Positions 2,822 through 10,267 of a DNA stretch of 64,000 bases are shown piece after piece. The position numbers were made by a program, and so were the translations under genes. Below the pieces are notes generated by a model. It saw only the letters and a program-made list of their open reading frames with translations, searched no databases and was not told the origin of the DNA. Source of the stretch: a virus; the IMG/VR virus record IMGVR_UViG_3300017783_000006, positions 1-64,000 of that record. One strand, 5' to 3'. Positions within the stretch are counted from its first letter, which is position 1. Each line of letters starts with the position of its first letter.

Positions 2822-3008
2822 GTGCGTCTGTGCCACCTCTACGACCGTCCCTGAGGAGGATTTCGATTCTAGTGAGTCTATCTTCAATAAGGTCTAATCT
2901 GTGCTCTGTAATTGCCTCTCTCTTCACAGAATATGGGTCTATTGTTGCCATTGTTCCCTGAAGGGAATTAATTAGTGGTTCGTCAAACATCATAGTTAAA
3001 TCATCCAA
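2808..3008 (-). CDS. hypothetical protein (66 aa)
   Basis: Helical segment EHRLDLIEDRLTRIEILLRD looks like a short coiled coil, then a Gly/Arg-rich turn. Several in-frame methionines near the start (residues 1, 6, 7, 20) leave the start uncertain. It overlaps the end of the three-domain glycosyltransferase/oxygenase by 13 nt. Confidence 0.55.
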   Translation of the reverse strand: MDDLTMMFDEPLINSLQGTMATIDPYSVKREAITEHRLDLIEDRLTRIEILLRDGRRGGTDALDWE

Positions 3009-4783
3009 GTAATCATAGAGTATCTAGTTCCAGATGTAACTGGCATAATTTCATGAGGATACATGAAATTTGATGGAAATATAATACCATCACCCTTCTT
3101 TAATTTGTATATTTTTGTTCTTCCCCAGAAAGTAAGTTCTCCACCTTCATAATCATCGTTTAAATTAAAAATTATAGTTAAACTTCTTGGTCTGTCTTTG
3201 AAATGATCTGTGTGTTCTATGTACTTTCCACCAACAGAATATTTTAACAATGTATATCCTTCATCTTGAGCACAAGTTAATTGCATTTCAGGATATTTGG
3301 ATTCATAACGTTGATATATTTCTTTTACTTTTTGAAAAAACATGTCATCATATTCCTTTCTCTTTTCTTGATTTTTAGACATCACATCATCATATGAAAT
3401 ATCTATCGAGGAACAATTTCTAACGTCTATGTCAGGTTCTCCTGAAGAAATTTTAGATTGCTGCCATTCATCGAACCTATTATATTCTTCAATAACTTTA
3501 TCGCAAATTGAAGTATCAAGAAAATTATCAACATGATATATCATGTCACTATAATCTATTTTTTTCTTAGTTCTATCAAAATACCTATCCGCATACTCTC
3601 CATTTTTTCTTACATAATGAAGAAATATTTGTGTATAAGATTCTCCTTCATATGGTTCCCTCCAATGAGGTCTTTCAGTTCCTAAGTAAATAATTGCATC
3701 TCCAGATTCTAAAACTACTGATTTAGTTTCCTTATTTGGTGTTTCTACAAAAAATTCCCAAGGTTCATCACCTTCCAAATGAACTGTCAATGATATTTCA
3801 CATTCAGATCTATCTACATGCTTTGTTAATACAGATTGATTACAATAATTTCTTGAGTAGCAATAAGTTGGAAGTACATCCTCCTCGATAATTTTAGAAA
3901 CCTCTTCGTTTTTATTAACAAGTAATTCTACACCAACAATAGGATTGTACATAGCAGGAGCATTTGATACCTGAGTATCTTTAATACAATCCCCCAAACT
4001 TATTTGTTTTTTTAACTTATTACTGATAGATACTGCATCATCAATTTCAATAAAATTACGGATAACAGCATATCCATTTTCTAACAATTCATTATTCATT
4101 GTAAATCTTTTTTCTAAGAAATAATTTGTTTTAATAGTGTCTATTCCATCAGGAATATCAGTTTGAAGTATATCCCTATCCCATGAACTTAAAAATCTAT
4201 TTTCCTTATTATATCCGCAAACATTAAACTTATGCAAGTGGTTTGTTATATATTCATCTACTGGAATAATACTGTTCTTATCACCAATCAATTCTCTTGC
4301 TGCTAATGGTGTAATTAAGTAACCATGAGTGCAATATGGATATACTGGAAGTGATAGATAATCATTTATTTTTACCACATTAAATTGCTCCCTCCAGTCA
4401 AAATATATCAAGTCATAATCATTAATAAGATTATCAAGTTGATTGAATGGTATTTTATGTTTAAGTATTGCATCATCTTCAAGAATTATTATTGGTTTGT
4501 CTTCATCTAAGCATTTTTTCCAAAGATAATAATGTGATAAAAAGCAACCAACTTCACCTTTCAAAATAGGTGTTTTGAATTCAGGATCTCTCCAATTTTT
4601 ATCAATATCAAATCCTCTTTCCAAAATCCAATCATAATCTATTTCGTATCCATTTATTGCATCAAAGAAATTATATTCAATAAATTTACTATTAGTTTCT
4701 TCAAATAATTTTTTCCTATCTTGTCTACTTTTTAATGATATTACAAAAATATTTTTACTCAGGAATATGTCTTTCATCTTCAC
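2996..4783 (-). CDS. GT25 glycosyltransferase fused to two 2OG-Fe(II) oxygenase domains
   Basis: A 595-residue, three-domain enzyme. Residues 8-215 are a family-25 glycosyltransferase (the LPS/collagen-galactosyltransferase type): FVISLKSRQDRK, GEVGCFLSHYYLW at 76-88 and the metal-binding LEDD at 101-104. Residues 226-400 are a 2OG oxygenase with H322xD324 (TKHVDRSE) and distal H373 (RPHWREPY). Residues 410-595 are a second, prolyl-4-hydroxylase-type oxygenase with H524xD526 (YIEHTDHF), distal H577 and 2OG-binding R587 (SGTRYSM). The order resembles lysyl hydroxylase/glucosyltransferase (PLOD) proteins of animals and giant viruses, which hydroxylate collagen lysines and then glycosylate them. 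The gene overlaps the next 2OG gene by 29 nt. That it modifies a virion protein is inference. Confidence 0.85.
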   Translation of the reverse strand: MKMKDIFLSKNIFVISLKSRQDRKKLFEETNSKFIEYNFFDAINGYEIDYDWILERGFDIDKNWRDPEFKTPILKGEVGCFLSHYYLWKKCLDEDKPIIILEDDAILKHKIPFNQLDNLINDYDLIYFDWREQFNVVKINDYLSLPVYPYCTHGYLITPLAARELIGDKNSIIPVDEYITNHLHKFNVCGYNKENRFLSSWDRDILQTDIPDGIDTIKTNYFLEKRFTMNNELLENGYAVIRNFIEIDDAVSISNKLKKQISLGDCIKDTQVSNAPAMYNPIVGVELLVNKNEEVSKIIEEDVLPTYCYSRNYCNQSVLTKHVDRSECEISLTVHLEGDEPWEFFVETPNKETKSVVLESGDAIIYLGTERPHWREPYEGESYTQIFLHYVRKNGEYADRYFDRTKKKIDYSDMIYHVDNFLDTSICDKVIEEYNRFDEWQQSKISSGEPDIDVRNCSSIDISYDDVMSKNQEKRKEYDDMFFQKVKEIYQRYESKYPEMQLTCAQDEGYTLLKYSVGGKYIEHTDHFKDRPRSLTIIFNLNDDYEGGELTFWGRTKIYKLKKGDGIIFPSNFMYPHEIMPVTSGTRYSMITWMI

Positions 4784-5387
4784 TAATAGATATTTGTTTT
4801 TCTTGTTTCCATATCCATCCCGTGCATATGTATTTGACTTCTCTTTTAGGTGGATACCCTCTATGTTGATATGTCCAAGTTGCTGGGAATAACATCAACT
4901 TCCCGCACTCTGGTTGAACCCTTGTACCTCCAACAAACTCTGTATATCCATTTTCTTTAACATCATTCAAATACCACAGAAAAGTTACTATTCTATTTGT
5001 TGTTGTTGTCTCATCTACATTCCCAGAACAAAAATCATGATGCCATGTATAAAATTCATATGGTTTTGTTTCTTGAAGTTGGTATCCAGTATCATATACT
5101 CCATCACTACAGAGAGCACTACCCATACCTGGCAGTATACAATTTAAATATTCTGAATACCTTTTTATTGCTCCAAATAATACTTCACTTAATATTTTAT
5201 CTTCCTCTCCCCAATTATTAGCATCTGAAAGTGACATGTCTATGGATAACTTAGTATCTGGAGTATATCCCCCACCAGTTATTCCTTTTCTTCTATGTTC
5301 AGAAGTTTTAAATTTATCAATTACATGATTACAAAACTCTCTCGTAAGAGAGTTTTGTTCAAAATAAATTAACTCATCAATGTCCAT
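4755..5387 (-). CDS. prolyl-4-hydroxylase-like 2OG-Fe(II) oxygenase
   Basis: A 210-residue single-domain oxygenase with the iron ligands HHD (YTWHHDFCSG) and QHRG (TWTYQHRGYPP), the beta-core stretch FLWYLNDVKENG and a lysine in the 2OG-binding region (REVKYICTGW). It reads like the phage P4H-type proteins that share YLND...G.TEF with the 198-residue protein at 39420-40016. Its 3' end overlaps the GT25-2OG-2OG gene by 29 nt in another frame, suggesting joint expression. Substrate unknown. Confidence 0.8.
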   Translation of the reverse strand: MDIDELIYFEQNSLTREFCNHVIDKFKTSEHRRKGITGGGYTPDTKLSIDMSLSDANNWGEEDKILSEVLFGAIKRYSEYLNCILPGMGSALCSDGVYDTGYQLQETKPYEFYTWHHDFCSGNVDETTTTNRIVTFLWYLNDVKENGYTEFVGGTRVQPECGKLMLFPATWTYQHRGYPPKREVKYICTGWIWKQEKQISISEDERHIPE

Positions 5388-6795: not shown

Positions 6796-6841
6796 AAATT
6801 TATAAACTATATATTAACTTCGATTATTTATGAAAATAGAG

Positions 6842-7099
6842 GGCATTACACCCCCCAAGGGTTATTGGATTAGAAGGATAACCTATCCCCCATCTCCCAT
6901 TTAGGCAGTCGCAAGTGTGCGAGTGCGGGAGAATGCAACGATATTATTCGCTGCGGAATCAGATGTGTTTGCATCTATGGTTTTGTTCCGTCAACAATTA
7001 CAACCTTTTTGCCCTGTCGAAACCATGGCACCCCCATGAATGGAGGTGAGGAGAATCGAACTCCTGTCCAGAACAACAGACTTTGCAACCTCTTGAACA
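6842..7099 (-). ncRNA. ssrA: circularly permuted (two-piece) tmRNA
   Basis: On the minus strand the acceptor piece comes first: TGTTCTGGACAGGAGTTCGA (T arm AGGAG-TTCGATT-CTCCT) and the 3' acceptor strand CACCTCC plus A (7041-7048). After five nucleotides (7036-7040) comes the coding piece, which begins GGGGGTGCCATGGTTTCGAC at 7035. GGGGGTG pairs with CACCTCC over 7 bp (one G-U), and helix P2 forms between CAGGGCAA (7009-7016) and TTGTTCTG (7069-7076). The tag frame follows at 6951-6901, then pseudoknot-like stems down to about 6842. Two-piece tmRNA is the form used by marine unicellular cyanobacteria. The ends are approximate. Confidence 0.9.
6901..6951 (-). other. tmRNA tag-peptide reading frame
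   Basis: Starting at GCG the frame reads ANNIVAFSRTRTLATA and stops at TAA. The first half matches the cyanobacterial tag pattern AN(N/K)IV-FSR as I remember it, which confirms the frame. The end, LATA, differs from the usual -AA (such as VAA or LAA) that ClpX recognises. Confidence 0.85.
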
Positions 7100-7105
7100 C
7101 TGTAT

Positions 7106-7133
7106 ATATTAGCATATTTTTTCCTCAAGGCAA
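7106..7133 (-). promoter_or_regulatory. likely tmRNA promoter
   Basis: Minus strand TTGCCT, 16-bp spacer, TAATAT, placing the transcript start near 7099, about 50 nt before the tmRNA T arm. It lies inside the 3' end of the upstream 2OG gene. Confidence 0.5.
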
Positions 7134-7705
7134 GTCCAAATTATTTTCTTCGTACCAGATGTTACTTTTGTCCCTTTATGTATTGTTCTCATATCACAGG
7201 GAAATACCAAAACACTTCCCTTTTTGGGTTTAACTTTTACTTTATCATTCAAAAATAGTGTTGCACCACCATCAAAATCATCATTTAAATATATGATTAT
7301 AGAAAGTACGAAATTTCCATTTTTTGATGAGTCTATATGCCAATTATAATAATCATTTTCATCATAAAATCTATAGATTAATTTCATATTATAATCTTTA
7401 GATTTACTAGAAAACATATTTGAATACTTATTTACTAATATATTATCATCATAATAGTTGGTTATAGATTTGGAAATTAATGCACTTGCTTCCATATCTA
7501 CTATTTTTACAAATTTATATTCATTAGATAACTCTGTTATATTAAATGCAATATTATTTCTAACTTTATTTTTACCACTAGACTTGTTATTAGAAATAAT
7601 ACTATTTTTTTCCTTCTCAATCAGTTCTATGAATTGATCGCAGATTTCATCATCAACAAAATTTTCATATTCGTAAATGAAATTATTATGTTTAATTAAT
7701 TTCAT
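7109..7705 (-). CDS. prolyl-4-hydroxylase-like 2OG-Fe(II) oxygenase
   Basis: About 198 residues with HxD in YYNWHIDSS, the core strand SIIIYLNDDFDGG, and distal histidine IHKG followed by a lysine (TSGTKKIIW) in the 2OG-binding position, as in P4H relatives. The start at 7705 (MKLIKHNNF) is chosen because the longer open frame to 7753 runs back through tRNA-Ala. Its 3' end contains the tmRNA promoter. Substrate unknown. Confidence 0.8.
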   Translation of the reverse strand: MKLIKHNNFIYEYENFVDDEICDQFIELIEKEKNSIISNNKSSGKNKVRNNIAFNITELSNEYKFVKIVDMEASALISKSITNYYDDNILVNKYSNMFSSKSKDYNMKLIYRFYDENDYYNWHIDSSKNGNFVLSIIIYLNDDFDGGATLFLNDKVKVKPKKGSVLVFPCDMRTIHKGTKVTSGTKKIIWTCLEEKIC

Positions 7706-7720
7706 GTGTTTAGAGCAAAA

Positions 7721-7793
7721 TGGAGAATAGGAGACTCGAACTCCTGACTTCAACCTTGCAAAGGTTGCACTCTACCAACTGAGTTAATTCCCC
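7721..7793 (-). tRNA. tRNA-Ala(TGC)
   Basis: Acceptor GGGGAAT/ATTCTCC carries the G3-U70 pair that defines alanine tRNAs; the anticodon loop TTTGCAA gives TGC; T arm AGGAGTTCGAGTCTCCT. The 3' end of the preceding 64-residue gene overlaps its 5' end by 10 nt. Confidence 0.95.
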
Positions 7794-8320: not shown

Positions 8321-8932
8321 TTAATACTTTGTTCCAATATTAAATTGGCAAGTAATTTTTTTCCCCGATTCAGGTAGAACAAAGTGTTCTAAATGACATG
8401 GAAATATTACCACAGAACCTTCACCAATACTTTTTTCTTCTCTTGTATCGTATAACTGTTGACCAAATACTGGACCACATGTTAAAGGACTTCTTTTCCT
8501 GAAAACTGTAGTATTTTCTTGACCATCAGTATCAACTATGTATACAAAAGAAAAGGATGGTGTATATCCATCACGACCATCTGCAAGATGATCATGTAAT
8601 CCAATGTAATCACCTTTATCATATCTATTATACCAACAATTAAGTATAATAGATGACTCTGGATTTAACCAGGGAAACTCAAATTTTTCTTTCAATTCAC
8701 TAAGCATTTGCTCTAGTGGTTTCCAGACAACATTGTTTAAAATTTCTTTATCAAATAAAAAACTATTGTATTCATTTCCATTATAGTAACTTTGAAATAC
8801 ATGGTCAATAGAGACACATCCCTTCTCATTGTCTACTCTGGACTGAATTTCATTTAATATTTTATTCTTTATATTATTATGATTTTTTACTTTGTTGGAA
8901 TAAACAAAATCAATAGGAAAAAAATAAAACAT
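8321..8932 (-). CDS. 2OG-Fe(II) oxygenase family protein
   Basis: 203 residues. The iron site is HDH (IGLHDHLADG), the core is FSFVYIVDTDGQ, and the distal histidine sits in FPCHLEHFVLP, followed by a lysine (GKKITCQFN) as the likely 2OG ligand. The HxH variant of the HxD motif suggests the putative phage-type 2OG family rather than classical P4H. It begins 2 nt after the preceding 55-residue gene ends and runs to within 8 nt of tRNA-Asn. Confidence 0.7.
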   Translation of the reverse strand: MFYFFPIDFVYSNKVKNHNNIKNKILNEIQSRVDNEKGCVSIDHVFQSYYNGNEYNSFLFDKEILNNVVWKPLEQMLSELKEKFEFPWLNPESSIILNCWYNRYDKGDYIGLHDHLADGRDGYTPSFSFVYIVDTDGQENTTVFRKRSPLTCGPVFGQQLYDTREEKSIGEGSVVIFPCHLEHFVLPESGKKITCQFNIGTKY

Positions 8933-9543: not shown

Positions 9544-9572
9544 ATCATACCAAAAAACATCTATCGTGTCAA
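9544..9572 (-). promoter_or_regulatory. sigma70 promoter of the Tyr-Ser tRNA pair
   Basis: TTGACA (9567-9572), 17-bp spacer, TATGAT (9544-9549), about 16 bp upstream of tRNA-Tyr. Overlaps the stop codon of the upstream 2OG gene. Confidence 0.75.
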
Positions 9573-10267
9573 GAAAATGGTGTAGAAATCCATGTTGATG
9601 GGTCTGTGCAAACATTCTCAACGTTACCAATTTCAGATTTTGCAGTTATCATAATATCAGCACTAACCGAATACCTCATAGAATCTCCTTCGTATTTTAA
9701 AACTTCATGTTCTATTGAAGAAGGAAAAATTATTATACTGTTACTACCCAAGTTATAATCAATATGATTGCGACTAAGTGACGTTTCACTAAACATACCA
9801 TGTCCACGAATAGGGAGTCTTCTCAAAAAATCGTCTCCTCTATGAAATCTTAACTTCCCAGTTTCACTATCTGTTTCTTTTTGAATGTAATAAACAGCAC
9901 TTAAATGTGAACCAATGTGGTTATGTGGTTTTATATACGAACCCTTTTCACAACAAACTGGCCAAGATTTTATAATATTTAAATCTACTTTTTCAGTATC
10001 AACTCCAAGTTCCCTTAAGTAACTAACAGTATGAAAACCAATAGCATGTGCTAAGTAATAAAAATCACCTGATGTTTTACAAACATTAGGTGCGGTTCCA
10101 TGTGTATCACCCGTTAAAGCACCATTACTTGTCTTTAGATGCTTATTAGTTTCATAATATTTTTCACAATATTTAAGCATTCTATCCTGAAAAACAGGAA
10201 AATAATCTATTTCTGATTCATAAATTGGCAATCCAAACCAACTGTAAATTTCTGCCTCTTTTACCAT
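9569..10267 (-). CDS. putative 2OG-Fe(II) oxygenase (PF13759-like)
   Basis: 232 residues in the style of the putative 2OG-Fe(II) oxygenase family common in cyanophages: the N-terminal FGLPIYESEI, an iron-site histidine pair in KPHNHIGSHLSAVYYI (HxH in place of HxD), and distal histidine with arginine in PSSIEHEVLKYEGDSMRYSVSAD. Substrate unknown. It shares layout with the 227-residue protein at 48893-49576, so the two are likely paralogues. Confidence 0.75.
   Translation of the reverse strand: MVKEAEIYSWFGLPIYESEIDYFPVFQDRMLKYCEKYYETNKHLKTSNGALTGDTHGTAPNVCKTSGDFYYLAHAIGFHTVSYLRELGVDTEKVDLNIIKSWPVCCEKGSYIKPHNHIGSHLSAVYYIQKETDSETGKLRFHRGDDFLRRLPIRGHGMFSETSLSRNHIDYNLGSNSIIIFPSSIEHEVLKYEGDSMRYSVSADIMITAKSEIGNVENVCTDPSTWISTPFS

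Follow-up and report, generated by a model that had tools for sequence, protein, structure and literature searches.

A cyanobacterial-type, circularly permuted tmRNA with a remodeled tag reading frame in a Kyanoviridae-like cyanophage

Introduction

A survey published in 2022 reports tmRNAs in 402 of 18,146 phage genomes, 53 of them in the two-piece form (PMC9004378), which agrees with the rarity asserted in the original prediction for the locus studied here, a tmRNA gene in a 64-kb stretch of viral DNA (the window). The two-piece genes surveyed, e.g., those of Melnitz, Pelagibacter phage Mosig and the single-cell virus AG-345-P14, resemble the present one in being permuted tmRNAs of marine T4-like phages, and the AG-345-P14 gene is a homolog whose tag is extended in the same way. 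Control by a glutamine riboswitch is common among the surveyed phage tmRNAs without being a defining feature (PMC9004378). The Melnitz type combines an alphaproteobacterial tmRNA with such a riboswitch (PMC9004378), whereas a search of the window with Rfam found no riboswitch above the gathering threshold. Mycobacteriophage DS6A likewise carries a tmRNA-like gene, which lacks a tag reading frame, whereas that of the window is complete. A phage-borne two-piece tmRNA is already known in kind, and its occurrence as such is not new.

The cyanobacterial tmRNAs of Prochlorococcus and marine Synechococcus, described by the Rfam family RF01851, share with the window gene the permuted order, a short spacer, the G3.U70 pair, the T arm, P2, the ANNIVxFSR tag core and a terminal hairpin. 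They differ from it in that the phage tag starts with seven extra codons, two hairpins precede the tail of the tag in place of the single one of the hosts, and the tail reads TRTLATA instead of RQTAPVAA; moreover, the phage gene scores 123 bits against the family model, as opposed to about 297 for host copies. Nothing directly relevant to differences among phage tags was found in the open-access literature that we searched; the tag extension, the resume-codon hairpin and the phage tRNAs nested in the spacer (see below) were likewise not found there and may still have been published.

The virus record and the neighborhood of the gene

The window comes from a linear virus record of 78,804 bases, itself a fragment of a Kyanoviridae-like cyanophage. 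It shows short stretches of DNA similarity to Kyanoviridae, e.g., S-SKS1 and S-MbCM6, and codes for a baseplate hub and a tail protein, auxiliary genes of the kind found in cyanophages and 11 tRNA genes (ARAGORN); no psbA was found in the record. The structural, auxiliary and tRNA genes bear out the claim that the tmRNA is phage-encoded: it lies in a phage genome with no host context. Its immediate neighbors are:

7109..7753, minus strand: 2OG-Fe(II) oxygenase gene, the upstream neighbor of the tmRNA gene (PF13640, phrog_61)
7721..7793, minus strand: tRNA-Ala(TGC), the closest to the tmRNA among the 11 tRNA genes (ARAGORN and Rfam)

The oxygenase is one of five 2OG-Fe(II) oxygenase genes within 8 kb (2996-4783, 4755-5387, 7109-7753, 8321-8932 and 9569-10267), of which one is a fusion with a glycosyltransferase family 25 domain; the tRNA cluster of the window is interspersed with these five genes.

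A complete permuted tmRNA

Covariance searches, which had been proposed as a check of the prediction, recovered the gene with two models. RF01851 (cyano_tmRNA) matches 7115..6839 on the minus strand with 123.3 bits against a cut-off of 70 (E 5.9e-33) and spans model positions 1-288 of 288, i.e., the full length, and RF04321 (tmRNA_permuted) matches with 85.5 bits against a threshold of 47. ARAGORN, used independently, reports a permuted tmRNA at 7130..6810 (minus strand) with the tag ANTSDSAANNIVAFSRTRTLATA. The element is a complete circularly permuted tmRNA of the cyanobacterial type and not a chance resemblance. The parts of its two pieces are:

6837..7115, minus strand: permuted two-piece tmRNA gene, entire precursor including the terminal hairpin (RF01851, RF04321, ARAGORN)
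7041..7076, minus strand: acceptor piece, comprising the P2 3' strand TTGTTCTG, GAC, the T arm AGGAG-TTCGATT-CTCCT, the acceptor 3' strand CACCTCC and the discriminator A
7036..7040, minus strand: intervening spacer TTCAT, 5 nt
7009..7035, minus strand: 5' end of the coding piece, comprising the acceptor 5' strand GGGGGTG (with G3.U70), a D-like region and the P2 5' strand CAGGGCAA

The 5' boundary of the gene lies at about 7115 (or near 7100, at a putative start), and the 3' boundary is the end of the terminator-like hairpin at 6837. The assignment of the gene to the RF01851 type is reflected in the gene order, with the coding piece preceded by the acceptor strand and T arm and separated from them by a spacer, in the presence of both determinants of alanine identity (G3.U70 and the discriminator A), and in an open frame of 23 residues from the Ala resume codon GCA to the stop TAA.

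The anatomy laid out in the original prediction was located in full on the minus strand: the acceptor piece precedes the coding piece across a 5-nt gap, the acceptor stem is formed by seven pairs between GGGGGTG (7035-7029) and CACCTCC (7048-7042), and P2 by eight between CAGGGCAA (7016-7009) and TTGTTCTG (7076-7069). The proposal that CACCTCCA-TTCA-TGGGGGTG folds as a single acceptor hairpin before processing likewise holds in the minimum-energy fold of the precursor, which has a z-score of -3.4, with 1 of 200 shuffled sequences folding as well. Within the window the diagnostic junction is unique, and, with up to 3 mismatches allowed, it has 0 matches in 100 shuffles. The brevity of the spacer, which had been singled out as a notable feature, is not a phage peculiarity: 61 of 115 host genes called by ARAGORN also have a 5-nt spacer, and this possibility was dropped.

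For comparison we assembled about 105 phage relatives and 114 host genes. Scans of viral contigs returned 41 hits with the acceptor junction and 112 with the tag core, the second scan demanding the core together with the last Ala of the extension, but neither the rest of the extension nor the tail. The rows with an extended tag number 107, with the window counted twice (as itself and as L001) and some isolates possibly duplicated by IMG/VR records. The G3.U70 pair is present in all 107 phage rows and in 114 of 114 hosts. Among the phages, compensatory changes affect 3 of the 7 acceptor pairs and 6 of the 8 P2 positions; pairing across unique phage P2 sequences stands at 73%, in part due to ARAGORN fixing the P2 length at 8.

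Flanking elements and a putative pseudoknot

Three further elements flank or follow the tag frame:

7106..7114, minus strand: TGCTAATAT, an extended -10-like box just 5' of the acceptor piece (read from the sequence)
6860..6888, minus strand: putative H-type pseudoknot with the stems GGAT (6888-6885)/ATCC (6870-6867) and GGTTAT (6883-6878)/ATAACC (6865-6860) (read by eye)
6837..6857, minus strand: terminal hairpin followed by a T-rich stretch, terminator-like (3 overlapping hits versus 0.3 expected)

The TGCTAATAT box shares bases with the stop codon of the oxygenase gene that lies directly 5' of the tmRNA gene. A similar TNCTANTATATA box lies 5' of the gene in S-CAM1, S-CAM3, AG-345-P14 and others, despite a different sequence farther upstream, and this conservation suggests that the box may be a promoter; it was absent from the hits of a scan with a consensus promoter. 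Both stems of the pseudoknot are retained, with altered bases, in the relatives L009 and L026, as judged by eye. No riboswitch was detected at the Rfam threshold upstream of the gene in eight related loci. In one group of phages (L006, L014, L178, L212 and L233), a hairpin motif of the form AGTCCTGATG-N-GACT recurs directly 5' of the tmRNA, and it matches no Rfam family at threshold.

A phage-specific tag reading frame

The proposed comparison with host ssrA genes and other cyanophages revealed a variant of the tag that is specific to the phages, the tag of the window being unlike any of the host tags sampled. Its frame and the RNA structures within it are, in the window:

6901..6972, minus strand: tag reading frame with resume codon GCA, coding for ANTSDSAANNIVAFSRTRTLATA followed by the stop (ARAGORN)
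6960..6977, minus strand: resume-codon hairpin TAGATG/CATCTG, in the phage-specific seven-codon extension
6935..6954, minus strand: second tag hairpin GCAGCGA/TCGTTGC, the counterpart of the single host tag hairpin GCTAAC/GTTAGT
6893..6933, minus strand: tail helix enclosing the stop codon and the variable tag end, with the inner hairpin TCGCA-CACT-TGCGA

The phage tags are typified by seven extra codons of the form A[NK]xxxxA, a core ANNIVAFSR (or VFSR) and a tail that varies in both sequence and length, from STVAA to ILTREFARTDELVTA. The C-terminus of the S-CAM1 tag, for instance, is NNIVAFSRSTVAA, as compared to the host ending QxAPVAA. Some cyanophage permuted tmRNAs lack the extension, i.e., L020, L027, L039 and L166 (S-CRM01), with tags such as ANNIVSFRRTAVAV and, in S-CRM01, ANNVVKFRRTAVTSLVAAL. 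The resume codon lies 36 nt from P2 in the window, mostly 36 or 43 nt in the phages and 45 nt in 108 of 114 hosts, and the sequence preceding it is similar in phages and hosts. Because the resume codon is found at this distance in the phages, close to that of the hosts, the seven-codon extension is likely to be translated; if the ribosome resumed only at the second Ala (GCG AAT), the extension would stay untranslated, and this option is disfavored, as that codon would be 57 or 64 nt from P2.

The tag frame of the phages is more structured at the RNA level than its peptide demands. Relative to synonymous recodings of their own peptides, the phage tag RNAs have a median stability z-score of -3.8, with 53 of 61 below -2, as against a median of -1.2 in the hosts. 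A stem of 4 bp or more supports the resume-codon hairpin in all 55 unique phage segments, as compared to about 3% of shuffled ones, and three alternative pairings are used in the different phages, namely AGATG/CATCT, ATCTG/CAGAT and GACG/CGTC; the host tag has a single hairpin in the corresponding region, which contains the host resume codon. In the second hairpin, codon 7 (GCA or GCT) alters together with codon 12 (GTT or GTA), such that the joint change between GCA..TTGC and GCT..TAGC is synonymous in the peptide. In relatives of the window phage, the inner tail hairpin reads TCGCG-AACT-CGCGA, a compensatory change that accounts for E rather than T in the tag. Thus, part of the variation of the phage peptides is a by-product of RNA pairing, as the difference between TRELATA and TRTLATA stems from a compensated pair.

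These observations bear on one of the alternatives to a plain rescue function, which is really a special case of it and compatible with it: the altered tag, with its extension and an ending such as LATA here versus PVAA in the hosts, might delay, redirect or retune proteolysis. The diversity of the tags favors this reading, with 44 distinct peptides among 61 distinct phage coding sequences, as against only 14 called peptides of the type AN[NK]IV[SRA]FSRQxAPVAA in 112 host genes, 73 of which are identical (a few host tags called with two extra leading residues, VT, were taken as having a misplaced start). Moreover, none of 400 genomes from the host family contains the core pattern of the phage tags, whereas the host pattern, used as a control, is present in 47 of 61 such genomes. 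However, much of the tail variation tracks changes in the RNA hairpins, as in the paired TRELATA and TRTLATA, rather than selection on the peptide, and certain phage tags terminate exactly as those of the host (QAAPVAA). All 44 distinct phage peptides have A or V at the last and third-last positions, and from what is generally known of ClpX and SsrA tags this [AV]-x-[AV] ending fits a retained protease signal. An altered fate of the tagged peptides strikes us as possible, if somewhat doubtful.

A probable ribosome-rescue RNA dependent on host factors

Building on the anatomy, covariation, conservation and separation from the hosts, we consider it likely that the gene specifies a functional, phage-borne, two-piece ribosome-rescue RNA of the cyanobacterial type that uses host factors; its processing, charging, rescue activity and tag fate might run as follows. 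The precursor would be transcribed from the minus strand, its folding would pair the acceptor and coding pieces, and host tRNA-processing enzymes would excise the 5-nt spacer. Because CCA is not encoded in the acceptor piece, the host CCA-adding enzyme would complete the 3' end, and the host AlaRS would charge the RNA via G3.U70. Lytic infection probably produces broken or stopless mRNAs in quantity, and host SmpB and EF-Tu would bring the RNA to the ribosomes stalled on them; the ribosome would resume on ANTSDSAANNIVAFSRTRTLATA and be released at TAA, and the C-terminus of the tagged peptide, being of the [AV]-x-[AV] type, would likely be read by host proteases. The role originally proposed, that of keeping ribosome rescue going while host mRNAs are being degraded, can sensibly be inferred, with the benefit of a second tmRNA copy in a host that has its own being assumed.

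No SmpB was found in the virus record or in 12 related records, and no ClpP in the virus record or the phage records searched, the absence from the record itself counting for little as it is a fragment. We therefore set aside a phage-encoded SmpB or ClpP, and the RNA would have to rely on the SmpB, AlaRS, EF-Tu, processing enzymes and proteases of the host.

Improbable, by comparison, is a decoy function, in which the RNA would titrate host SmpB or block host trans-translation; this has been proposed for the tag-less tmRNA-like RNA of mycobacteriophage DS6A. Such a role has a precedent in a DS6A-like molecule that strongly inhibits tmRNA (PMC4131195, PMC11915505), and a slower host quality control would profit the phage. 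However, RNAs of the DS6A type barely exceed the tRNA-like domain, whereas the present gene has a tag frame, stop codon, putative pseudoknot and tag hairpins, of which the frame and hairpins are retained throughout the phage lineage.

Relatives and the origin of the phage genes

Homologs of the tmRNA are found in S-CAM1, S-CAM3, Sf-FS3, S-SSM7/S-SSM6a, S-CRM01 and the single-cell virus AG-345-P14, and the gene is common to at least five isolate or single-cell phage lineages. The copies in S-CAM1 and S-CAM3 are 91-92% identical to the window gene over its length and share the same resume hairpin; they differ in the tail of the tag (STVAA versus TRTLATA) and in the neighboring genes. In GenBank the phage tmRNAs are unannotated or overlapped by a short "hypothetical protein". 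Such proteins run over or into the tmRNA in S-CAM3 (L168, 4002-4142, AOV58949.1), S-SSM7 (L165, 3986-4204, ADO98091.1) and Sf-FS3 (L164, 4231-4440); AOV58949.1 and ADO98091.1 look like false genes. Other types of permuted tmRNA also occur in viral contigs (L005, L015, L029, L035, L040, L041 and L012), with tags that are alphaproteobacterial-like or unassigned, e.g., ATNSDSMRKDNVLAFVPRIAVPMQMAA.

A tree built on both pieces, minus the spacer, extension and tail, places all hosts on one side of a branch with a support of 100/100 and a length of 0.27, with the bootstrap not yet settled and the long phage branches of S-CRM01 and L039 uncertain. Because the hosts are split off by this branch, the phage genes appear to form a separate, old lineage relative to the sampled hosts rather than recent captures. 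Within that lineage, the tag frame would have been remodeled by the seven-codon extension, giving rise to the resume hairpin, and by fast-changing tails encoded in hairpins. Although tmRNA genes are common integration sites and prophages contain fragments of them (PMC9004378), it is very unlikely that the gene was captured recently from a host in passing or is an attachment-site remnant with no selected function, as it is complete, shows compensatory changes, is shared by the above phage lineages and is separated from all sampled hosts in the tree, which, with the stated reservation as to its bootstrap, rules out recent capture.

tRNA genes nested in the tmRNA spacer

In 23 of the 107 extended-tag rows, which include neither the window nor any isolate, a whole tRNA gene lies inside the tmRNA spacer. 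It is tRNA-Tyr(GTA) in 15 rows (e.g., L172, L190, L226 and L259) and tRNA-Asn(GTT), of two sequence types, in 8 (e.g., L194, L230, L248, L250 and L260). The tmRNA model matches extend across the inserted tRNA, with 134.1 bits in L226 and 113 bits in L230. As such insertions are carried by several metagenomes and several tag lineages, misassembly is unlikely. Processing of the nested tRNA could release both tmRNA pieces. The spacer of a further relative (L243:5774-6336, minus strand) is 220 nt long and consists of repeated small hairpins (TTAGTATTC...TAATACTC) with no tRNA.

A comparable arrangement has been reported for a permuted tmRNA from a nominally archaeal genome, where a tRNA-Ala lies in the spacer and was called unique (PMC11915505). 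The 23 relatives resemble it in having a whole tRNA in the intervening sequence; that case concerns one genome and tRNA-Ala, whereas the phage relatives have tRNA-Tyr or tRNA-Asn in many contigs. No other published counterpart was found in the open-access literature searched.

Implications

We tentatively propose, as a minority reading, that in this cyanophage branch of split tmRNAs the tag has become a degradation signal unlike that of the host, such that the fate of the rescued peptides would differ, and that some members of the branch couple their maturation to the processing of a nested tRNA. The relatives with nested tRNAs suggest a simple route by which tRNA processing might mature a split gene. 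The phage genes also present an unusual contrast, with a tag that is almost frozen in the hosts being freely remodeled in the phages. More generally, they offer a testable case of a lytic phage that would bring its own ribosome-rescue RNA: S-CAM1, which has the gene, can be cultured on Synechococcus WH7803, and the expression of the tmRNA, its charging and the fate of its tag are therefore measurable.
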